Shown here in pieces: positions 12,017-50,377 of a DNA stretch of 64,000 nucleotides (positions are counted from its first letter, which is position 1; every line of letters starts with the position of its first letter). The stretch comes from Clostridia bacterium UC5.1-1E11 (GTDB lineage: Bacteria > Bacillota > Clostridia > Oscillospirales > Acutalibacteraceae), in the NCBI GenBank assembly GCA_001305115.1, contig BCAA01000005.1, forward strand, positions 62,001-126,000, written 5' to 3'. A program made the translations under genes and the position numbers. Under the pieces are notes generated by a model that was not told the origin of the DNA, made no database searches, and saw nothing but the letters and a program-made list of their open reading frames with translations.

Positions 12017-12454
12017 ATGGTACAAAATCAAAATGTTCAACTTTTAAAAGAGTTATATCAGGCTTCTCATATGGGGATCGAGGCGGCCAATCTGGTCACT
12101 CCCAAAGTAAAGGACGAAGGCCTTCGCGAAGAGATTGAACGGCAGCGTCAGACTTACAAAGGCCTTGCGGTCAAAACAGAACGTATGCTGGCAGAGGCCG
12201 GAGAAACCCCGGACCCCGAATCCGCCATGAAAAAAGCGATGCTCTGGGGTTCCGTTCAAATGAATACGCTTATGGATTCCTCTCCAACTCATATTGCTGA
12301 AATGATGATCAATGGGACAACTATGGGAATTGTAGATATGACCAAAAAACTCAATCAGCTCGATGAAGCCGATGCCGGCGCAAAAAAACTTGCAGAAGAA
12401 TTTATTCGTGGACAGCAGAAATCGATTGAAGTATTAAAGCAGCATCTATCTTGA
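12017..12454 (+). CDS. Conserved-looking helical protein of unknown function
   Basis: This 145-residue protein is predicted to be almost entirely helical, with alternating charged and hydrophobic residues (KELYQASHMGIEAANLV, MTKKLNQLDEADAGAKKL) and no signal peptide. Two to four long helices suggest a four-helix bundle, loosely like ferritin-fold or spore coat-associated proteins, but I cannot name a family. AAAGGCGG lies upstream of the ATG. It has its own terminator and is followed by the ABC-F gene. Confidence 0.7.
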   Translation: MVQNQNVQLLKELYQASHMGIEAANLVTPKVKDEGLREEIERQRQTYKGLAVKTERMLAEAGETPDPESAMKKAMLWGSVQMNTLMDSSPTHIAEMMINGTTMGIVDMTKKLNQLDEADAGAKKLAEEFIRGQQKSIEVLKQHLS

Positions 12455-12481
12455 TTTCACGCTTTGAATTCTTTATAATGG

Positions 12482-12511
12482 TAGGGAACGCCCATTGGCG
12501 TTCCCTATTTT
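12482..12511 (+). terminator. Intrinsic terminator after the helical protein gene
   Basis: A perfect 11-bp stem (TAGGGAACGCC with GGCGTTCCCTA, loop CATT) is followed by TTTTT, 28 bases after the stop at 12454. Confidence 0.9.
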
Positions 12512-12514
12512 TAT

Positions 12515-12531
12515 GGCCAGGCCACCTGGCC
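12515..12531 (+). promoter_or_regulatory. Second hairpin between the terminator and the ABC-F ribosome binding site
   Basis: GGCCAGG CCA CCTGGCC is a perfect 7-bp, GC-rich hairpin ending 5 bases before AAGGAG of the ABC-F gene. Its position could affect ribosome access or pair with the terminator above as part of a leader; that is inference. Confidence 0.45.
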
Positions 12532-12549
12532 TGCAAAAGGAGAATTTTC

Positions 12550-14441
12550 ATGGCTTTGCTGAGTGCAAGCAATTTGAATAAATCCTATGGAACCGATTTA
12601 GTATTTCAAAATGCCTCCTTTGAAATCCAGGAAAATGACCGTGTCGGTTTGGTGGGCGTCAATGGTTCAGGAAAGACAACGCTGTTTAAGATTCTAACTG
12701 GGGAGATTGACGCGGATCGTGGCGAAATCTATCAGGCAAACGCCACCGTGTTGGGCTATATGGAGCAGCATGTCTGTCGCGATTTGGAACGCAGTGCATA
12801 TAGTGAGGTTCTCACGGTTTTTCCAGCCTTCTGGCAATGGAAAAGGAACTGGAAGAAATCAATCATGCATTGCAAGCACATCCTTCCGACGAACTGATTG
12901 ACCGGCAAGCGCTCCTCAACGACCAATTTGTCCGCCAGGGAGGGCTCACCTGCCGGGCACGGGCACGTTCTACTCTTTTGGGCCTTGGTTTTGACGATGA
13001 GCAAATGGGAATGCCGATCGGTGTGCTGAGTGGCGGCCAAAAAGCAAAATTGCAGTTGGCTAAAATGTTGCTCTGTGGCGCCAACCTCCTACTTCTGGAT
13101 GAGCCAACCAACCATCTGGACATTCCATCCGTGGAATGGCTGGAAGATTTTCTTCGCGCCTATTCAGGCGCATTTATCGTTATCTCACATGATCGATATT
13201 TTCTGGACCGCATTACAAACCGTACCTTCGAGATGGAAAATCACAAACTAACCCTCTATAAGGGGAACTATACCAATTATCTCCGCCAAAAGGAAGAGGA
13301 CAACCTCGCGGTCCAGCGCAAATATGAGAATACAACGCGCGAGATTCACCGTTTGGAAGGGATTGTCGCACAACAGCGGCAGTGGAACCGGGAAAAGAAT
13401 ATCAAGACAGCAGAAAGCAAATTGAAGATGATCGAACGACTGGAAAGTACATTGGAGCGTCCAGATGAAGAAGTCGAATCCATCCACTTTGATTTTGGAA
13501 TCCGGCAGCGTGGCGGCAATGATGTGCTTTCGGTGGAAAATTTGTCCCTTTCTTTTGGAGAGAAAAAGCTCTTCCAAGACGTCAATATGCATATTCGCCG
13601 CGGAGAACGGGTTTTTTTAATCGGCCCCAATGGTTGCGGAAAAACCTCCCTTTTCAAGACCCTTTTGGGGATAAATCACCCTACAAAGGGAGAAGTTCGC
13701 TTTGGCGCAGGAATCGAGACGGGATATTACGACCAGATTCAGGAAGGCCTTCATCCCGAAAAGAACGTATTGGATGAAATATGGGATAGCTATCCTCAGA
13801 TGACGCAGACAGAAATCCGAAACGCTTTGGCAGTCTTTCTCTTTAGAGGAGAAGATGTATTCAAAAGTGTTGCCTCGCTCTCCGGCGGCGAACGTGCGCG
13901 TGTGTTATTGCTTCGTTTGATGCTCTCGCGCGATAACTTTTTGCTTCTTGACGAACCGACCAACCATTTGGACATCGGTTCCTGTGAAGCGCTTGAAACC
14001 GCTTTGCAAAGTTACGAGGGCACATTGTTGATTGTATCGCACGACCGTTATCTCATCAATAAAATAGCAGATCGCGTCTATTTCTTAGACGAAACAGGTG
14101 TGAAGGAATACATCGGAAACTATGACAGTTATCTGGAAAAAGCCAAGGCTACTGCCGTTCAGGAAACCCAAAAAGCCGCTCCGAAAGTAAACGCGTATAA
14201 ACTTCGCAAAGAGCGGGAGGCTGCTATTCGCAAAGATCGTGCGGCTTTGCGCCGCCTGGAAACACAGATTGAGGAAACCGAACAGGCCATTGCAAACACA
14301 GAGGCAGAACTTGAGAATCCAGAAGTAGCAAGCGATTATCAGGCTACCATTGAGCTTGCGCAAAAATTGGAAGAATTGCGCGTGAAAAATGATGAGCTAT
14401 TTCTCGAATGGAGTACCTTGAGTGAGAAATTGGGGGAATAG
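12550..14441 (+). CDS. ABC-F family ATPase (one frameshift)
   Basis: This soluble protein has two ABC domains and no membrane segments; the family acts on the ribosome in translation control or antibiotic protection. Domain 1 has Walker A GVNGSGKT (36-43), LSGGQKAKL and DEPTNHLD; domain 2 has GPNGCGKT, LSGGERARV and DEPTNHLD. The linker is rich in charged residues and a C-terminal coiled coil follows. Frame is lost at 12818-12822, where a run of five T should be six; correction gives a normal 630 residues. The ATG follows AAAGGAG. The sequence resembles the YdiF/Uup housekeeping group more than known resistance types, but I cannot exclude a resistance role. Confidence 0.88.
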
Positions 14442-14830: not shown

Positions 14831-16129
14831 ATGAAAGTAAGCGTCATCACCCTGGGATGTAAAGTAAATCAATATGAATCGCAGGCTATGTTGGAGCAGC
14901 TGGCCAGCGCTGGCTTTACTGCATGCGACAGCACAGTAGAAAGCGATGTTGTGCTCATCAACTCTTGTACAGTCACTTCGACGAGCGATCACAAGGTTCG
15001 CCAAACGCTACACCGCACTCGGCGCGGAAATCCCAACGCAGTGATCGTACTGACTGGCTGTATGCCGCAGGCTTTTCCAGAGCTAGCTGCGCAACTGACC
15101 GATGCGGACGTTGTTCTTGGGAATTCCAACCGCCATGCACTGGTTCCAGATATTCTACAATATCTCTCTTCGCGTCAGCGCATTGTGGATATTGTTCCGC
15201 ATGAAAACACCGCAACCTTTGAAAAAATGCAGGTCGAGCATTTCTTTGAACGTACCCGTGCATTTATTAAAATCGAAGACGGATGCAATCGTTTTTGCTC
15301 CTATTGTATTATTCCTTATGCTCGTGGCCGAGTACGTTCCAAACCCTTGGAAGAACTGCGTGAAGAGGTTGCCCAAATCGCTGCCAACGGATACCGGGAG
15401 ATTGTTTTAACCGGCATCAATCTTTCCGCTTACGGACAGGAATTGGGATTGCATCTCTGCGATGCTGTAGAAACTGCATGCGGGCCGGATGGAATTGCAC
15501 GGGTACGCCTTGGTTCCCTTGAACCGGAGCAACTCAGTGCGGACGTAATCGCCCGCCTGGCCAAACAGAAAAAACTTTGCCCACAGTTTCATCTCTCCCT
15601 ACAAAGCGGCTGTGATGCCACCCTTCGACGCATGAATCGCCACTACACCACAGCGGAATATCGAACGATCGTGCAAAATTTGCGAACAGCTTTTCCCGAT
15701 TGTTCCATTACAACGGACATTATGGTTGGTTTTCCCGGGGAAACGGAGGAAGAATTTTCCCAGTCCCTGGCCTTTGCAAGGGAAATCGGTTTTGCAAAGG
15801 CGCATGTATTCGCCTACTCGCGGCGTCCCGGCACAAGGGCCAACGATGCGCCCCATCAAATCACGCAACGAGTTAAGGAAGAACGCAGCCGGCAAATGAT
15901 TGCTGTCACCCAGCAAACGAAAGAAGCCTTTTTCGAGAAGCAGTTGGGATGCATCGCACCCGTGCTTTTCGAACAGGAGACCGCTGTGAACGTCTACGAT
16001 GGTTACACCGCCAACTATACTCCAGTCAGGGTTTCCAGCGCAAAAGATCTTCGAGGCCAAATTCTCCCCGTCCGGTTGACCGAAGCCGATCGGGACTGTT
16101 GTTATGGAAAGCTTACTGAGGGGATTTAA
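14831..16129 (+). CDS. mtaB: tRNA t6A37 methylthiotransferase MtaB
   Basis: This radical SAM enzyme adds a methylthio group to t6A37 of tRNAs that read ANN codons. This 432-residue protein has the UPF0004 domain with three cluster cysteines (C10, C46, C77), the radical SAM CxxxCxxC motif (C152, C156, C159), and a C-terminal TRAM-like segment. The opening LGCKVNQYES is diagnostic of the MtaB group. The ATG follows AGGAG. Its stop overlaps the end of the convergent GH10-like gene by 4 bases. Confidence 0.93.
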   Translation: MKVSVITLGCKVNQYESQAMLEQLASAGFTACDSTVESDVVLINSCTVTSTSDHKVRQTLHRTRRGNPNAVIVLTGCMPQAFPELAAQLTDADVVLGNSNRHALVPDILQYLSSRQRIVDIVPHENTATFEKMQVEHFFERTRAFIKIEDGCNRFCSYCIIPYARGRVRSKPLEELREEVAQIAANGYREIVLTGINLSAYGQELGLHLCDAVETACGPDGIARVRLGSLEPEQLSADVIARLAKQKKLCPQFHLSLQSGCDATLRRMNRHYTTAEYRTIVQNLRTAFPDCSITTDIMVGFPGETEEEFSQSLAFAREIGFAKAHVFAYSRRPGTRANDAPHQITQRVKEERSRQMIAVTQQTKEAFFEKQLGCIAPVLFEQETAVNVYDGYTANYTPVRVSSAKDLRGQILPVRLTEADRDCCYGKLTEGI

Positions 16130-17417
16130 CCGGCGAATTGTTTCATGACATTTTCAACCTCTTCTTTGGTCTGATCGTGATTCAAATATTCCCAGCTATA
16201 GAACATAAATCCATCGCACTCCACTTGGCGCCCTAGAGAAACCTGCTGTGCCAGGATATTGTCCGCTTTTTTCCATGTCCCTTCGTCCGCATCTGAACCA
16301 GCTTTATACACTGCCAATCCAAAATACAATTTTACATTGGAAGCGGTTGTCATCTCGCGCCATTGCTCTGCGGCTACATCGTACGGAAGTACGGGATTCT
16401 CAAAATTGACATAAAGTTGCGGACAGATATAATCCACATACCCGCGCACCGAACACCAGGCTTCTACGTCCGCGCCCATTTTCAGATCATTTGAAACATT
16501 GGCCTGCGGTGAGATTCCAAACTGTACGTCCGGATTTACTCCCTTGATTTCACTATATGTAAGGGATACCATTGCATTCACATTTGCCCGACGCCATTCC
16601 AACAGAGACAGGGGTTTTCCGCCAGTGGAGACGGATTCCACATAAGCATTATACGCTGCTTCATCAAATGCTGGGTCCTCTGAGGGATAGAAGTAGTCAT
16701 CAAACTGAATGCCATCGACATCGTAATGTTCTACAATCTCCTTTGCACCATCTGCCACCAGTTTTCGGACTTCTGGATAAGCAGGGTTGTAATATTTACC
16801 CGATGCCGTTTGAACTGTCCAGCCTGCTTTACTGGAATCCCCTTGCCAAACATTGTAGTTGTTGTTCTCAGCTAACGTCGAAGGAGTATCTCCGCCGGAC
16901 TGAATACGCATCGGGTTGAGCCACGCGTGGAATTCCATCTCGGCCTTGTGTGTAGCTTCCACCATGTATTCCAATGGATCATAACCGGGGTCCCTCCCCT
17001 GGGTGCCGCCTACAATATGTGACCATGGATAATATTGCGATGGATACAAGGCGTCTCCAAATGGACGCACATGGACAACCAGTGCATTCATTCCACACTG
17101 TTTTGCTTCTTCTACAATGGCATCAAATTTTTTTGAAAGGCTTGGGCGCTTTTGTCCACCTCTTTGCTCATATCCAAGCTCATATAAGGAACCCATACTG
17201 CACGCATTTCATCTTTTGAGGCGGGCTCTACTGGGATTTCTGATGAAGAGGAAGTCTCTTGAAGGTCTGAAACATGACTTGATTGCCCCATAGGGGATTG
17301 TGCTGGAACATCCTCCTTTTTGCCAAAAAAGTTGACCGCCATGCAAAGAGCTACAACCCCTGCCAAAAGTCCAATGCACACCAGTAGGCTATGGCGGTGA
17401 AAGAGCTTGATTACCAT
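16126..17417 (-). CDS. GH10-like (GHL10/YddW-type) glycosidase-like exported protein (one frameshift)
   Basis: An N-terminal membrane anchor or signal (residues ~10-28) and a low-complexity Ser/Glu linker lead into a glycoside hydrolase-like TIM barrel: MRAVWVPYMSLDM, ALVVHVRPFGDALYPS, DVDGIQFDDYFYP, QFGISPQANVSN, DYICPQLYVNFENP. The family (DUF187/GHL10) is thought to act on cell-wall glycans outside the membrane. Frame is lost at 17128-17134: seven bases where eight give AFQKKFDAIVEEA. Corrected length is 430 residues. AAAGGA precedes the ATG. It converges on mtaB. Confidence 0.85.
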
Positions 17418-17999: not shown

Positions 18000-18274
18000 G
18001 ATATGGTTTTATATACTATTTGGTTTTCATCAATTTGATTGCTATCATTTTGACAATCCGCGACAAACACGCTGCCCAACAGCATCGTTGGCGTGTCCCA
18101 GAAGCGACGCTTTTGTGGGTATCCATCCTCGGCGGTTCCCTGGGAATGTATACAACCATGCGTTTGATCCATCATAAGACGCAACACCGCAAATTCATGT
18201 GGGGAATTCCGGCGATCTTTGTGGGGCAATTGGTAATATTTTTTCTAGTCATTCGATATGTCCCTTTTTATTGA
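17996..18274 (+). CDS. DUF1294 family membrane protein
   Basis: This 92-residue protein has three hydrophobic helices and the DUF1294 pattern: DKHAAQQHRWRVPEATLL, GGSLGMY, then the basic HHKTQHRKF before the last helix. The function of the family is unknown. TAGGAGG precedes the ATG, which overlaps the stop of the zinc-ribbon gene. The operon ends at a terminator 60 bases later. Confidence 0.85.
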   Translation: MRYGFIYYLVFINLIAIILTIRDKHAAQQHRWRVPEATLLWVSILGGSLGMYTTMRLIHHKTQHRKFMWGIPAIFVGQLVIFFLVIRYVPFY

Positions 18275-18337: not shown

Positions 18338-18385
18338 GAGCCATTGGACGCCGATGTTCTTTCGACGTCCAATGGCTCATTTTAT
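18338..18385 (+). terminator. Terminator after the DUF1294 gene
   Basis: A perfect 13-bp stem (GAGCCATTGGACG with CGTCCAATGGCTC) with a 15-base loop is followed by ATTTTAT. It could also serve blaR1 from the other side. Confidence 0.75.
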
Positions 18386-18465: not shown

Positions 18466-20094
18466 TTATGCACCATAAAAAGTATGAAGGATTTCCGGCG
18501 CTATACTTTGTGCCTTATATGTTGACAACCAATTCTGATACTCCGGGTTTTCCCATACAGTCCCGTCATCAAAGGTGATTTGCTTCATACACGCTAGCAC
18601 ATAAGCTACTTCATGGGATCCGTCCGACTGGTTCCATCCATCCCATAAAGACCAGCCACCATTCAAATCTTCTTTTTCACCCGGTAGTAATGGTTTTTCC
18701 GCTTCTGTAATGATCCATTCATATGATTCGTCACTTTGAGATGTAAATCCAGTAACCTTGTTTCCATCTGTCAATGCAATTTGTTGCCAAATAAGTTCTA
18801 ATGGATTTCCGTCTTTGTCATATGCAAGACAGGCCATTTCGTAATCGGTTATTGTCTTATCTGAATTGTTGGTAATGATCCAGTGGAGATAAGGCCATCT
18901 ACCGTCCGGATCGTCGTCCTCATAATACCGCATTTCCATTTCCTCAATGATTGCTGGGTTTTTCGCTACTTCTAAAGGAGTTGTCTGAGTCTGTGTTCCG
19001 GTAATGTTGTTGGCACTAGGGGTACCGACATCAGTCGGTATTTGTTGCACAGAATTAGGCGCCGATGATGTATATGAGCCTACACAAACGGCACCAAAAA
19101 GCAAACAGACTGCCAATAACACAGAAACCATAACCAATTTGTGCGACTGTTTTTTATATGTCATGATCGCTTTTAATCTTTCTTTGATTCGTTTTGCATC
19201 ATCGCTCAACAGAAGGGAGACTGTTGTATGGGACGGCATTTTGTCAATCTTGATTGCGTTAAGCAACATATCTCCGTAATCAAACCTACTTTTTTGTCTA
19301 GACACTTAATAACCGCTTCGTCGCAAGATAACTCGCAGTTGCGGTTAATCTCACGACTGACCCAATATACAACAGGGTTAAACCAATGGATACAAAGTGC
19401 AATCTGTACAAGCCATTTATACACAATATCCAACCGTTTATAATGGGTTAGCTCATGTTGCATAACAAGTCTTATATCCGTGTCTTTTAGGCTTGTGTCT
19501 GGCAGAATAACCATCGGCTGAACGATTCCGACAATCATAGGAGCGGGCACCCGTTCATTTTTGCGAGGCTTGGTGCGTGTTTGATACCCATTATTTTGCA
19601 AGTTTCGCGATACATATTGAGCAAGTGAATATCATCAATTAAACCCGAACTATTTTTGATAAAACGTGTCTGACGATAATAACGGACCAACTTCCGGATC
19701 AACAGTAAAATGGCAGGAACGAGCCACGCAAGCCACCACCATCCTAACAGTGTTTCTTTCCTATCTTCCTGAGCAGTTACCATGGAAACAGACTCATTAT
19801 TTGTTTGCTCTTGTGGTGTTTCGTCCGGCAACCGTAAAAAATGAACCGTATCTGAAGCAGACGTAGGGACATCGGTTGTTGTTATATGGCTTTCAAACTG
19901 ATTAAAAATCATTCTCATTAGGCTAAATTCTGGCCCAAATGGAAGCAAAAGCCGAATAATTACAATCAAAAAATATAATACTGCCATATTTTACTCAAAC
20001 GATCTTTAATAATTGGCCTTAGCAAAAGTAAGAGTAATGCTATTAAAGAGCCGGATATGGAAAGGGAAAGGATTATTAAAAATATCTCATTCAT
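18466..20094 (-). CDS. BlaR1/MecR1-type sensor metallopeptidase, M56 family (three frameshifts)
   Basis: The protein has N-terminal membrane helices, an M56 metallopeptidase domain with the zinc motif HELTH and the downstream ELSCDEAVI, another membrane helix, and a C-terminal outer domain. That domain (EMRYYEDDDPDGRWPYLHW, GGWSLWDGW) resembles DUF5780 rather than a penicillin-binding domain. The family senses a signal outside and cleaves the partner BlaI-type repressor. Three homopolymer slips break it, each one base short: 19967-19972, 19558-19562 and 19290-19295; correction gives 543 residues. The ATG at 20094 overlaps the end of the blaI-like gene. The signal sensed is unknown; a beta-lactam is not implied. 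Confidence 0.85.
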
Positions 20095-20473
20095 CTATCT
20101 CCCTACCTTTCTGCCAAAACCTATATAAGTCCTCCAAATCTTCCGGGGTAACTTCCTTATAACTAACGAGGGCAGATAACAAGCCCTTTGCGTCACCATC
20201 AAAGACTTTTTCGAGCAGCGCCATAGTCTTAGATTTTACATAATCGGCTTCTGAAACAAGTGTAGAATAGTAATATACCTCACGCTTTTCCTGCTTCAAA
20301 ACTTTTTTCTGAACCAGACGTTTTAGTAATGTCTGGATACTCTGATTTCCTATATCAAACTTCACGCTCAACGCAGAGCGGATTTCAGCGTATGTGGTAG
20401 GTCCCCCCTTGTTCCAAACCACTTTCATAATTTCCGCCTCCGTATCTGAGATTTTATCAACCCTTGTCTCCAA
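20087..20473 (-). CDS. BlaI/MecI/CopY family repressor
   Basis: This 128-residue winged-helix repressor (ISDTEAEIMKVVWNKGG, TYAEIRSAL, QSIQTLLKRLVQKKVL) has the C-terminal dimer helix where the partner peptidase usually cuts. I chose the TTG at 20473 because GGAGGT lies 7 bases upstream and it matches the family N-terminus. The stop overlaps the start of the sensor gene by 8 bases. The gene sits just behind a perfect inverted repeat covering its own -10 box, so it should repress its own operon. Other targets are not visible in the window. Confidence 0.9.
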   Translation of the reverse strand: METRVDKISDTEAEIMKVVWNKGGPTTYAEIRSALSVKFDIGNQSIQTLLKRLVQKKVLKQEKREVYYYSTLVSEADYVKSKTMALLEKVFDGDAKGLLSALVSYKEVTPEDLEDLYRFWQKGREIDE

Positions 20474-20488
20474 AATTTTCACCTCCAA

Positions 20489-20529
20489 TAAGACAGATGT
20501 ATTATTAATTATATAATACATCTGTCTTA
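20489..20529 (-). promoter_or_regulatory. Operator: perfect 17-bp inverted repeat of the BlaI-like repressor
   Basis: TAAGACAGATGTATTAT at 20489-20505 is matched exactly by its reverse complement at 20513-20529, with TAATTAT between. It covers the -10 box and the probable transcription start, and contains the TACA/TGTA half-sites usual for BlaI/MecI operators. Binding by the neighbouring repressor is inference from position and symmetry. Confidence 0.8.
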
Positions 20530-20541
20530 TACGCTTGTCAA
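20513..20541 (-). promoter_or_regulatory. Sigma-A promoter of the blaI-blaR1-like operon
   Basis: On the minus strand TTGACA (20541-20536), a 17-base spacer and TATTAT (20518-20513) form a near-consensus promoter. Its -10 box lies inside one operator arm. Confidence 0.8.
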
Positions 20542-20805: not shown

Positions 20806-20842
20806 CAAAACGACTCTGTATGGAATGCTCCACACAGAGTCG
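20806..20842 (-). terminator. Terminator after leuS
   Basis: On the minus strand CGACTCTGT pairs with ACAGAGTCG around a 14-base loop and is followed by TTTTG, 22 bases after the leuS stop. Confidence 0.8.
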
Positions 20843-20863
20843 CAATTATTCTAAATCGTCCAA

Positions 20864-25237: not shown

Positions 25238-25771
25238 TTATACAATCTTTTCGTAACAACGAGAAATCTGCGGGCCATTGTTCCCCTGATGTAAATCTGT
25301 TTTTCCCGCTACCCTATATCCGTTCTGTTCATATAACTGTACGCCGGGGATATTCCGCTCATATACGTCCAACCGGATGCTGTGTTTTCCATGCTCACGC
25401 GCATACTGTTCCGCAAATCGCAGCAGCTGCCCGGAGACTCCCTTGCGCAAATGAGCCGGATGTACGGCCAAGGTGTGCACCACCAATACTTCATTGGGCG
25501 CAATCCCTTCTTGCCAACAAATGTCCTGATACCCATCGGGCTGTACACCATTGAGAATACAGGTTCCTAAAACGGCTTCCCCATCGGTGCAGATATAAAG
25601 CTCACCATTTTTTAGGCCTTCTTCCGCCGTCCACCGCGCAGGATATTCTCCACGTTTCCAGCCGGGATAGTTGTATGTCGATTCCAAATAATTGCAAATC
25701 GCATCGTATAGTTCTGCCACATGTTCCAGGTCTTCCTGTGTGGCCTTGTGGATGGAATATTCAAATGCCAT
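25238..25771 (-). CDS. GNAT family N-acetyltransferase
   Basis: This 177-residue protein has the GNAT acetyl-CoA site ([23 protein letters not shown], with the R/KxGxxxxL-like loop) and the C-terminal [18 protein letters not shown] segment. The acceptor is unknown; it could be a small molecule or a protein N-terminus. Its ATG overlaps the end of rdgB by 11 bases, so it is read with the rdgB/ftsY group. The frame is intact. Confidence 0.85.
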
Positions 25772-26337
25772 GGTGCGTCTCCAATCGTACAGCTAGTTCC
25801 CGCAGCGCCTTTCCACGGTGACTGACCGCATCCTTTTCCGCTGGTGTCAACTCCGCATATGTTTTCTCCCCCACAAGGAAAATCGGATCATAGCCAAACC
25901 GTCCGTACCGCGCGGCGCAAAAGCCACGCTCCCCTCGCAGGTTCCCTCTACATCGATCCGTTTTCCATCCGGATAAACCACGCAGATAGCACTGACAAAT
26001 CGCGCTGTTCGCTGTCCGGCGGGAATCCCTTCCAACTCCCCCAGCAACTTCTCCATTCGCTGTGCATCCGTAGCATCCGGTCCGGCATAGCGTGCGGAGT
26101 ACACTCCCGGCGCTCCATGCAGGGCGTCTACCTCTAGCCCGGAATCATCCGCCACGCTGGAAGGCCGGTCTGGTCACAGGCTGCCTTTGCCTTCAAAAAT
26201 GCATTTTCTGCAAAAGTCTCGCCGGTTTCCTCCACATCCTGCAAATCGGCTGTTGTCACCTCAATATGCAGGGGTTCCAAAATTCGCTGCAACTCCAACA
26301 ATTTGTTGGGATTGTGCGTCGCCATTACATATTTCAC
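25761..26337 (-). CDS. rdgB: XTP/dITP diphosphatase RdgB/Ham1 (two frameshifts)
   Basis: It removes non-canonical purine nucleotides such as dITP and XTP. The N-terminus [13 protein letters not shown], the central [20 protein letters not shown] and the C-terminal [16 protein letters not shown] lie in three frames. One base is missing near 26153-26157 (between PA and VADDSG) and one at 25896-25898. Corrected length is 192 residues, normal for the family. The start is the GTG at 26337, 6 bases after AAGGAGGGG. It follows ftsY after 13 bases and overlaps the GNAT gene. Confidence 0.88.
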
Positions 26338-26350
26338 AAGCCGCCCCTCC

Positions 26351-27259
26351 TTATCGTGTAAACAAAGCTTCTGAAAACGCTCTTGCATCAAATGGCTGCA
26401 AATCATCCACCTGCTCGCCCACACCGATAAACTTCACCGGCAACTTGAGCTCCTCACGAATGGCCAATACAACACCGCCGCGCGCGGTACCGTCCAGCTT
26501 GGTGAGCACAATCCCGGTGAGGTTGGCGACGTTTTGGAATTCTCGCGCCTGGTTGACGGCATTCTGGCCGGTTGTTGCATCCAAAACCAATAAAACTTCC
26601 TTGTCCGCATCGGGCAACTCACGGTCGATAATGCGGTTGATTTTTGCCAATTCATCCATCAAATTTTTCTTATTGTGCAGACGCCCTGCTGTATCACAAA
26701 TCACCACATCCGTACCACGGGCCTTGGCCGCTGCAATTGCATCATACACCACGGACGCCGGGTCCGAACCCTCCGGATGCTTCACAATGTCGCTGCCACT
26801 GCGATCTGCCCAGACCTCCAATTGCTCAATTGCCGCTGCACGGAAGGTGTCCGCAGCTGCCAAGAGAACGTGTTTTCGTTCTTGGCGCAGGCGAGAAGCA
26901 ATCTTTCCAATTGTGGTGGTTTTTCCCACGCCGTTTACGCCAATTACCAAAATCACCGAAGGTTTGTGTGGACATGCAGCTCCTCATCTCCGGCAATCAT
27001 CTCTGCCACCGTCGTCCGCAGCATCTCAAAAATTTGCGTTGGATCGGTAATCCTCTGTTCCTTGACGCGCTTCTTGACCTCATCACAGATACGTTCCGCT
27101 GTTGGAACGCCCGTGTCGGCCATGACAAGCAACTCTTCCAGCTGTTCAAAGAGAGATTCATCGATTTCTGTATAAGAGCCAAGCATCGTATCCAAAGATG
27201 CGCTAAAGCTTTCCCTGGTCTTTTTTAAGCCTTCTTTTAATTTTTGAAAATAAACCCAT
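26351..27259 (-). CDS. ftsY: Signal recognition particle receptor FtsY (two frameshifts)
   Basis: FtsY is the SRP receptor GTPase that delivers ribosomes to the membrane. The N domain (YTEIDESLFEQLEELL) is followed by the G domain: GVNGVGKTTTIGKIA (G1), DTAGRLHNKKNLMDEL (G3), TKLDGTARGG (G4) and GVGEQVDDLQPF. Two slips break it: one extra base at 27235-27238 and one missing at 26963-26965. Corrected length is 302 residues. The ATG at 27259 follows AGGTG and starts MGLFSKIK, typical for the family. As the gene is normally essential, the frameshifts are most likely sequence errors. smc lies 46 bases upstream. Confidence 0.92.
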
Positions 27260-27305
27260 GATGATTACACCTGCCTATCTGAAAAATTCAAAGGACGACA
27301 GCTGC

Positions 27306-30300
27306 TTACTTTGCAGCATCCATCCCCAGTTTTTGTTCAATTTCACTCGCACGCAACTCCAAGAGCTTCGACACACCCTCGTCCTGCATGGTAACGCCAT
27401 ACAAAACATCCGCTTCTTCCATACTTCCGCGGCGGTGTGTGATGACAATAAACTGCGTATTGTCCGTCATACGCCGTAGATAGGCCGCAAAACGGTCGAC
27501 ATTGACATCGTCCAATGCAGCCTCAATCTCATCCAGCATACAAAACGGAGGAGGACTCACCTTCATAATCGCAAAATAGAGCGCAATCGCCACCAACGCT
27601 TTTTCCCCGCCGGATAAGAGTTCCAAATGGGTGACAATTTTTCCGGGAGGCTGAACCGAAATCTCTATGCCGGACCGGAGAATATCCTCCGGATCGGTCA
27701 GGGAGAGGCCCGCCGTTCCACCTCCGAATAATTCCTTGAAGGTCTGCAAAAAGTTCGTGTTGATCTGTTGAAACCGTTCTATAAAGAGGTCCCGCATCTG
27801 ACGGGTAAGATCCCCGATTAAACGCTTCAACTCGTCACGGCTTTGCTCAACATCCTCTACTTGCGAATTCAGGAATGCATATCGTTCGCTAACCTCTTTG
27901 TACTCTTCCACAGCCGCTACATTGACGGTTCCCAGAGACTTGATCTTCCCCTTTAATTCATTCAAACGCTTTTGCGCTTGCCCCTCATCATCAATGGGTC
28001 CAGCGATTTCTTCTGCCTCCCGCCGGGTCAATTCGTATTCTTCCCACAAGCGGCTGATAATTTCATCGTATTCCTTTTGCAGGCTTGCCTTTCGTTCCTC
28101 TAAACGGGCCAATTCATGGCCAACATTCTCCCGCGCGCCAGACTGTTCACGCTCTTTGGCGCGCAACTCCGCGGACGTTTTTCAAAGGCCATTCTTTGCG
28201 CATTGAGCTCTTCGATTCGCGCAATGGAGGCCTTTGCCTGTTCCCGGAGAGAGGCCGCCTCTTGTTTCAAGTCCTCGATACGCTCTTGCAAGCTGGCAAT
28301 AGAAGCATAAACCCGCTGCATTTCTTGGCGCAATGCCTCCACGTGACCCACACGGTCTTCCTTTCTGCGCTCGATGTCTGCAATTGCAGCACGCAGAGAT
28401 TCAATGTCCTTTTGCGCAGAAAGGCTTTCAATGCGCAACTCCTGTACGTCAACGGACAGAGCATCACAGATTTGGTTTTGTTCACTGCGGCTGGAACTGA
28501 CCTCGTTCATCTTTCCCTGTAACACGGAAATCTCGATCGTCATTTCTTCCAGCTTTTGCTCTGCCTGTTTTTGCACAGCGCGCTGTTCCTCCAGACGTTC
28601 TGAAGCAACCGCTTTTTCCTGCGCTAAGGATGCAAGATCTGCCGCAATCGTTTGCCGGTCCGCCTTTGCACGGTCATGCTCTGCTTCTATGCGAATGCGC
28701 TCTTCCTGTGCCGTTGCCAACTCCCCACGCGCACCGGCAAGAGCCGCCTCCGCTGCGCTGGCCTCCTCATTGGCAGAGCGCAAAGCAGCAGCGGCCTCCT
28801 CCGCTTTTTCACGGAGCTGATCTGCTTGCGCACGAATCCGTTCAATATCCGAAGCGCGGCTCAACAGACCGGAATTTCGGGCCAAAGAACCGCCGGTCAA
28901 GGAACCGCCTGTATTGACTACCTGGCCATCCAAGGTAACGATGCGGAAACGGTAACGATAGCGCCGAGCAACCGCAGTGGCAGCATCCAAATCTTCAGCC
29001 ACTACAATCCGCCCCAGGAGGGAATGCAAAATCCCATTGTATTGCTCGTCACAGGTACAAAGCTTTCCTGCAATTCCAACTACGCCTGGACAATCCTCCA
29101 CCCCCGGTTCGTTGAGCACATTCCCATGGATATTGGATAGCGGCAGAAAGGTCGCACGTCCGCCGTCTCTCTGTTTCAAAAAGCCGATGGCGCGCTTTGC
29201 ATCCTGCTCGCTGCCCACCACGACATTTTGCATGGCCGGGCCCAAAGCGGTTTCAATTGCCACCGCATATTCACGTGGCACTTTAATTAGGCGGGAAACC
29301 GGCCCATGAATTCCCGGAAGCGTCCCATGCTTTGCCTCTTTCATCACAAGTTTGACGCTCTGGGAAAAACCTTCCAAATTGCGCTCCAAATCCTCCAACA
29401 GGCGTGCACGGCGCGCACATTCATTGGCATCTAAATTGAGCTTTTCACTCTGCTGTTTGGCCGTTTCAGCGCGTTGCCGGCGGGAATTGAGCCGCAGTTC
29501 ATAACCTTTTACCGCATTGGAGAGCGCTTGTATGCGCTCCTGGCTATCCGCCAGCATCTTTGTAAAATCCGCATCACTTTGCTCTAACGCCTCTGCACGT
29601 TCGTGCTTTTCCGCAAGCGTTTGGTCGACGGTTTGCATCCGCAGCTGAATCTCCGCAATGGTCGACGCAGCTGTCATGGAAGCCAACTTTTGTTGTGTCG
29701 ATTCTGCGGACAATGCACGAATCTGTCGGGAATAGTCGTCGATTTTTGCCGCCGTCTCTCCCATTCCTTTGCGGATCTCTTCCAACCGCTTCATACAGGC
29801 AGCGCTCTCCGCCTCTTTTGCCTCAATAAACGCAGTCTTTTCCGCAATTTCCGCATTTTTTCGCGCGATCTCCTCCTCCATGTCCTTGCCAGACTGGTCA
29901 GACTGCGCAATCTCTCGTTCTATGCGGGCAATATTCTCGCGGTTATGTAAAATGTCGTTTGCAAGGACGGAAGCCTCCCCATCTTTGGCAACAGCTGCTT
30001 CTTCCAAGTGTGCAGCCTCTTGACGGGCCTCGTCCACGCGCGCAGTACAGGCATTTGCCTGCGTAAAATTTTCCTCGATTTGCTGCTCAATCGCTGCCAG
30101 CTGTGTCTCCAATTCGTCATAGTGGCTTTTGGCAATCACAATCCGGTCGTCGTGTTCCCGAAGGACATGTCCGGAACGTTCCAGTGTATTGAGCCACAGG
30201 CCAATTTCGAGTGTACGTTTTTCAGAGGCAAATTCCAAATAACGCTGCGCCTTTTCAGCTTGCTCCTTCAAAGGCCCAACACGGTCTTCTAGTTCGGCGA

Positions 30301-30883
30301 GAATGTCCCGCAGGCGCAACAGATTTTCCTCCGCCTGATTCAGACGGCGTTCGGATTCTTCTTTCCGATAGCGAAAGCGGGAAATACCCGCTGCTTCTTC
30401 AAAGATTTCACGCCGATCTTCACTGCGTGCGCCAACGATGCTATCGATCTTCCCTTGCCCAATTATCGAATATCCATCACGGCCCAAACCGGTATCCATG
30501 AACAGTTCATTGATATCGCGCAGACGAACAGCCACTTTATTGATGAGATATTCGCTATCGCCGGAGCGGTAATACCGGCGCGTCACCGCTACTGTATCGC
30601 TGTCAAAGTCCAAACGCCGGTCGGCGTTGTCAATGGTGAGCGTCACTTCGGCAAACCCCTGGGGCTTTCTCGCTGGCGTCCCGTTGAAGATCACGTCTTC
30701 CATCCGGGTACAACGCAGAGTACGGGTGGATTGCTCTCCCAGCACCCATCTTACCGCATCGCTGATATTGCTTTTGCCGCTTCCATTCGGCCCCACCACC
30801 GCCGTGATACCGCGGTCGAACCGAAGGGTCGTTTTATCCGGAAACGTCTTAAATCCTTGTATTTCCAACGATTTTAAAAGCAA
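27306..30883 (-). CDS. smc: Chromosome segregation ATPase SMC (one frameshift)
   Basis: SMC forms the bacterial condensin ring with ScpA and ScpB. This protein of 1192 residues (corrected) has the N-terminal Walker A GPNGSGKSN (~32-40), two long coiled-coil arms, a hinge around the middle (ETALGPAMQNVVV), and the C-terminal signature LSGGEKALVAIAL with Walker B MLDEIEAALD. Frame is lost near 28178-28182 in the second coiled coil, one base missing. The start is a TTG at 30883, 9 bases after AAGGA, and overlaps the stop of the radical SAM gene. The order rnc-smc-ftsY is conserved in Firmicutes. Confidence 0.95.
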
Positions 30884-50320: not shown

Positions 50321-50377
50321 ATGGTGCACTGCCCCAGCTTGTGCTATCCGCACAAACTGGGGCAGTGCACCATTTTC
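50321..50377 (+). terminator. Very long hairpin terminator after the DUF4190 gene
   Basis: 24-base arms (50321-50344 with 50350-50373) pair with one mismatch around TATCC and are followed by TTTTCC. No gene lies in 50378-50501. Confidence 0.85.

Follow-up and report, generated by a model that had tools for sequence, protein, structure and literature searches.

The locus lies on the minus strand of the window (the whole stretch of 64 kb that was analysed) and carries, in this order, a gene for a BlaI-type repressor and a gene for a BlaR1-like M56 sensor, the start of which overlaps the blaI stop. The coordinates of the features are given in Table 1. Because the two genes overlap and terminator-like hairpins flank them, the locus looks like a two-gene operon. 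Terminator-like sites numbered 6 between positions 18200 and 20900, against 2.0 in shuffled sequence, and the blaI promoter ranked best of the 8 promoter-like sites in the same interval (shuffle mean 6.7 sites). An Rfam scan gave no match at gathering scores.

Table 1. Features of the repressor-sensor locus (positions in the window; a point in the strand column marks a feature without strand)
Feature	Position	Strand	Remark
Terminator-like hairpin downstream of the operon, 17 pairs	18338..18378	-	
Fourth piece of the blaR1-like gene, in a single frame: M56 tail, final hydrophobic stretch, outer region	18466..19305	-	
Outer DUF5780 domain (PF19092), predicted beta-sandwich	18511..18891	-	
Third piece of the blaR1-like gene, other frame: protease core, bearing HELTH (19443-19457) and CELSCDE	19206..19601	-	
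Second piece of the blaR1-like gene, other frame	19535..19987	-	
First piece of the blaR1-like M56 gene, with the N-terminal hydrophobic stretch	19968..20094	-	start overlaps blaI stop
blaI-type repressor (128 aa, cysteine-free, start codon TTG)	20087..20473	-	
Ribosome-binding site GGAGG	20482..20486	-	from sequence
Operator dyad TAAGACAGATGTATTA (7+2+7, 6/7 pairs)	20489..20504	.	on the minus strand, downstream of -10
Mirror dyad TAATACATCTGTCTTA	20514..20529	.	25 bp start-to-start from the TAAGACAGATGTATTA dyad; overlaps -10 and spacer
Promoter, 11/12 consensus	20513..20541	-	TTGACA 20541-20536, 17-nt spacer, TATTAT 20518-20513
Terminator-like hairpin between leuS and the operon, downstream of the former and upstream of the latter, 15 pairs	20810..20843	-	

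The nearest genes that were scanned are those of leuS, RsfS, a CTP_transf_like protein, DUF1294, a GHL10 hydrolase and a radical-SAM enzyme, and no beta-lactamase or PBP2a-like gene was found among them beside the operon. The preliminary description had stated that no resistance gene adjoins the pair. This was correct for the nearest genes scanned, but a split ABC-F gene is present on the opposite strand (12430-14438, +), about 4 kb from the end of the sensor gene. The larger piece of this ABC-F passed the NCBIfam model NF000355 (ribosomal protection-like ABC-F) with 420.8 bits against a cut-off of 380; nothing links the ABC-F and the switch.

The repressor matched PF03965 at positions 1-114 of 115 (3.7e-26, 92.2 bits, cut-off 22.6), and sequence comparison with the PDB returned BlaI/MecI matches, including the penicillinase repressor 1sd4 (2.8e-11). 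In a sequence alignment, Ala-Leu stands where S. aureus BlaI has its cleavage site, Asn101-Phe102. The ATG-initiated reading frame of blaI begins at 20521, but the start is probably the TTG at 20473, because GGAGG precedes this codon and the ATG falls within the operator. The 131-amino-acid piece of the sensor with HELTH and CELSCDE matched PF05569 (7.9e-31, 107.8 bits) and holds the HExxH...E motif. With Pfam matches for both the PF03965 repressor and its PF05569 M56 partner, the earlier assignment as a BlaI/BlaR1-like pair was upheld. A plasmid search with the repressor yielded one distant BlaI match, from Listeria innocua (31.3%), and searches of plasmids and of phages with the sensor yielded no match. 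An AbiEi identity for the repressor was considered and rejected, the PADLOC matches being only weak.

The operator had been described as a perfect 17-bp inverted repeat. The repeat is indeed perfect, but its arms are 18 nt long (20488-20505 and 20513-20530, with 7 nt between them), and each arm is itself near-palindromic (TAAGACA-GA-TGTATTA). From its sequence, a pair of BlaI-type dyads in mirror orientation, spaced 25 bp apart, is the better description of the operator. One dyad covers the -10 box and spacer and the other lies beyond the expected transcription start, so that two ACANNTGT dyads sit over the promoter of the repressor itself. The claim that the operator covers the -10 box was borne out, as TATTAT (20518-20513) falls within one arm, and the overlap of the dyads with a promoter matching the consensus at 11 of 12 positions supports the predicted self-control of the repressor. 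Perfect 17-bp inverted repeats with a loop of at most 20 nt occurred at two places in the whole window, the operator and 50321-50373, and at none in any of 5 dinucleotide shuffles; the repeat at 50321-50373 has a 19-nt loop. The 10-nt core of the operator alone is not rare (4 matches with at most one mismatch, against 2.5 expected).

A double-dyad test was applied to 25 blaI loci of relatives and of the same genome, drawn from 40 places and including the window. The test looked for one dyad placed 12 nt past the beginning of TTGAC and another 24-28 nt further on, and a locus passed when at most 5% of shuffles reached its score. TTGAC was present upstream at 24 of the 25 loci, and half of these (12/24 including the window, 11/23 excluding it) passed the test. 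The 12 TTGAC-bearing loci that failed included one from the same genus (L034); a further locus of the same genome (L053) did not pass either. Published precedents are also available: BlaI of C. thermocellum uses two pairs of inverted repeats, with four protomers, in the BlaI_1845 and BlaI_0696 operons (PMC8457756, available text), CopY operators are often paired, most commonly at a spacing of 26 bases (PMC7253601), and the bla divergon of B. licheniformis is described with three operators (PMC3305447). As the same layout passes at other blaI loci and has these precedents, the operator layout is ordinary. The C. thermocellum operons differ in that, in the available text of PMC8457756, they hold further genes.

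A search of the genome for the operator arm had been proposed as a means of listing target genes. The operator was not detected a second time, and no regulon is claimed. For the 15-nt arm with at most three mismatches, the counts were 34+33 in the genome and 49+40 with the reversed control, and the 16-nt dyad with at most two mismatches gave 20 places against 50 in the control. With one mismatch, the 16-nt dyad occurred at only two foreign places (C4:64558 and C6:2319). The exact double core with 25-bp spacing was found once in the organism's own genome, where the control gave 0. Over all 40 genomes it occurred in 3, the foreign ones being G016 and G020, and the control pattern likewise in 3. 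When one mismatch was allowed in the double core, 5 places were found in the genome against 8 in the control, and the other four did not resemble full dyads. These counts might indicate that the regulon is this operon alone, or that other sites are too diverged to be seen. The C. thermocellum repressors BlaI_1845 and BlaI_0696 have very small regulons, and that of BlaI_1845 consists of one operon, its own (PMC8457756, available text). The same genome carries, on contig C27, two intact and similar blaI-blaR1 pairs in tandem (L057 3459-9766), and behind each pair lies a small protein, not the same in the two cases, that is apparently secreted and has no NCBIfam match; by eye, each of these blaI genes has a single dyad after the -10 box.

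The outer domain of the sensor had been called DUF5780-like and not of the penicillin-binding type, and both points were supported by sequence and by modelling. DUF5780 (PF19092) was matched with 5.8e-34 and 117 bits (cut-off 28.2) and nothing else in the outer region exceeded its cut-off, the sole other match, HCBP_related, falling below it. The outer domain also matched PDB entry 5tta by sequence (2.2e-30). The fold model used was built from 20 sequences and had a mean pLDDT of 81.8; a single-sequence model was poor (56.9) and was not used. Compared with 5tta, the model gave Z 17.4 and an rmsd of 3.0 over 151 aligned residues (Foldseek E 9.6e-13). A beta-lactam-binding fold was also looked for: no penicillin-binding protein was among the best 50 matches listed in the structure comparison (by the tool's note no proof of absence), in which 5tta was the closest listed fold and carbohydrate modules appeared in lower rows with Z 5.6-6.7, values within the tool's stated background. 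The protein of 5tta is CD630_21270 of C. difficile (PMC10586155, in the available text). It resembles the outer domain in fold and shows clear sequence similarity, but the PDB entry calls it a putative exported protein, and the alignment covers its residues 65-274, before which an M56 part would not fit.

The M56 tail, which matches an intact M56 protein of the same genus at 40%, and DUF5780 are in one frame, and the fusion is therefore independent of the frame breaks in the sensor gene. DUF5780 was found in 7 of 150 and in 16 of 398 genomes of the family (overlapping draws, the own genome and the same-genus genome G001 being counted in each) and in 10 of 398 genomes of the phylum (the same two counted), to which 19 named loci were added. 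The sample of DUF5780 loci comprised 43 including the window, or 39 distinct other loci after removal of three duplicates, with flanks of about 1.5-4 kb, less at contig ends; several of the 39 are weak matches under the Pfam cut-off. No M56 frame, recognised by HExxH-type and CD[ED]-type motifs together, was found beside any of the 39. In the seven DUF5780 loci that were scanned, DUF5780 was the only family over its cut-off. Among five full-length M56 relatives scanned, one had an M23 domain and four had no known outer domain, so the outer regions differ between these proteins. At L059 (5475-7419), BlaI adjoins an M56 protein with an M23 peptidase outer domain, and the operator there is a double dyad with 7/7 and 6/7 pairs. 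Text searches of the literature returned one paper for DUF5780, which merely lists the name, none for the domain architecture of Peptidase M56 proteins together with BlaI, and one review for extracellular sensor domains together with M56 and BlaI. The combination of M56 and DUF5780 is rare or new in the sample, and this fusion is the one unusual feature of the switch.

The locus had also been called a complete switch, a claim that did not hold for the sequence as given, since three frame changes, all in the same direction, interrupt the reading frame of the sensor within 18466-20094 (about 1.6 kb). Against the NCBIfam model blaR1_generic (cut-off 400), the 131-amino-acid piece scored 65.7 bits and the intact M56 protein of the same genus 142.7. 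The three frame switches coincide with A/T runs of 5-6, but runs of at least five identical bases are common between 18466 and 20100 (13 in total), and a run at a switch is weak evidence. Other genes on the same contig are split as well. FtsY is normally single and essential, and the only match in this genome over the FtsY cut-off (26354-27264, -) has its N-terminal part in another frame; a second FtsY-like place on C12, with 232.8 bits against the cut-off of 260.7 and open over 447 aa, is probably Ffh. The RdgB/HAM1 pyrophosphatase is spread over three frames (25764-26433, -), the ABC-F gene is in two pieces, split near 12.8 kb, and SMC is apparently split into two overlapping frames (27306-30883, -). 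The genes checked for splitting by family were chosen because they looked broken. In the GHL10 hydrolase (16126-17417, -), too, a frame change apparently separates the N-terminal part from the rest; the N-terminal pieces of YqeK and GHL10, both of which looked split by eye, gave no family match. A home-made coding model flagged many frame changes in the window but also plain gene junctions; it did not settle the case of blaR1, and no rate is claimed.

Since FtsY, RdgB, ABC-F and apparently SMC are split too, indels of the assembly are the likelier cause of the blaR1 frame changes, and we consider this explanation probable. The alternative is a true pseudogene, in which an acquired blaI-blaR1 operon has lost its target gene and is decaying, while BlaI still silences its own promoter. 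The three frame changes in the sensor are in keeping with this, as are the lack of an evident adjoining target gene and of another operator in the genome, and the low GC content would fit an acquired, decaying element. GC over the operon was 0.402 against 0.478 and 0.516 in the flanks, and the operon may have been acquired; in blocks of 500 nt, values between 18000 and 20999 were 0.40-0.44 and those of single flank blocks ranged from 0.44 to 0.59. The splitting of the other genes of the contig argues against decay, as does the state of the blaR1 pieces, each of which is open over its own stretch and keeps conserved motifs. Decay of the gene is therefore regarded as unlikely, and caution is needed before other apparently broken genes in this window are interpreted, as the assembly splits genes.

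The type of both proteins, repressor and protease, would also suit a classical beta-lactam receptor with an outer domain that responds to penicillins but escapes sequence tools. Such a receptor is very improbable here, DUF5780 being the sole match over the cut-off in the outer region and its fold that of 5tta. KTG/KSG, the motif of penicillin-binding domains, was looked for in the outer region and was absent. The region after the last hydrophobic stretch, as judged by eye, has about 200 residues, compared with 254 (332-585) in the sensor domain of S. aureus (PMC9834060, available text). A copper repressor of the CopY type standing beside an unrelated peptidase is, if anything, a shade less credible still. 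The best NCBIfam match of the repressor was CopY_TcrY, although below the cut-off (72.5 bits against 121.95), and CopR/CopY are homologous repressors with two operators built on the ACANNTGT core, described as KACANNTGTM for CopY operators (PMC7253601, available text). CopR and CopY, however, bind copper via a C-terminal Cys-X-Cys (PMC7253601), and the repressor is not a copper sensor of this family because it has no cysteine; moreover, its neighbour is a protease gene of the M56 type that overlaps it, as in BlaI/BlaR1 operons.

The explanation that we favour, and consider likely as a whole, is a self-repressing BlaI/M56 operon with a DUF5780 sensor, the frame changes being indels of the assembly. 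BlaI dimers would bind the two dyads over the -10 box and the transcription start and so repress the operon. The predicted beta-sandwich of DUF5780 would occupy the place of the penicillin-binding domain in the membrane-bound M56 protease and would detect an extracellular signal, upon which the protease would be expected to cleave BlaI and the operon to be released. A more specific version is offered tentatively and has a rather modest chance of being right. In this version DUF5780, as a beta-sandwich resembling carbohydrate modules, would stand in for the penicillin sensor and recognise an extracellular ligand other than an antibiotic, perhaps a polysaccharide or a fragment of the wall, and the repressor would act on no promoter but its own. 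In comparison with BlaI-BlaR1 and MecI-MecR1 of Staphylococcus and Bacillus licheniformis, the locus shares the PF03965 repressor, the PF05569 M56 protein with HExxH, a C-terminal outer domain past the last hydrophobic stretch, and dyads that overlap the promoter. It differs in having DUF5780 in place of the penicillin-binding domain, in that the nearest genes scanned include none for a beta-lactamase or PBP, and in a sensor frame that is broken in the assembly.

Our verdict is that the switch is real and for the most part ordinary; what is unusual is its outer domain, and the assembly shows the frame of its sensor broken. A BlaI/BlaR1-like pair alone is thus not proof of beta-lactam sensing. 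The locus would represent a further case in which M56 receptors keep the relay from protease to repressor and swap the outer domain, for DUF5780 here and for M23 in a relative.
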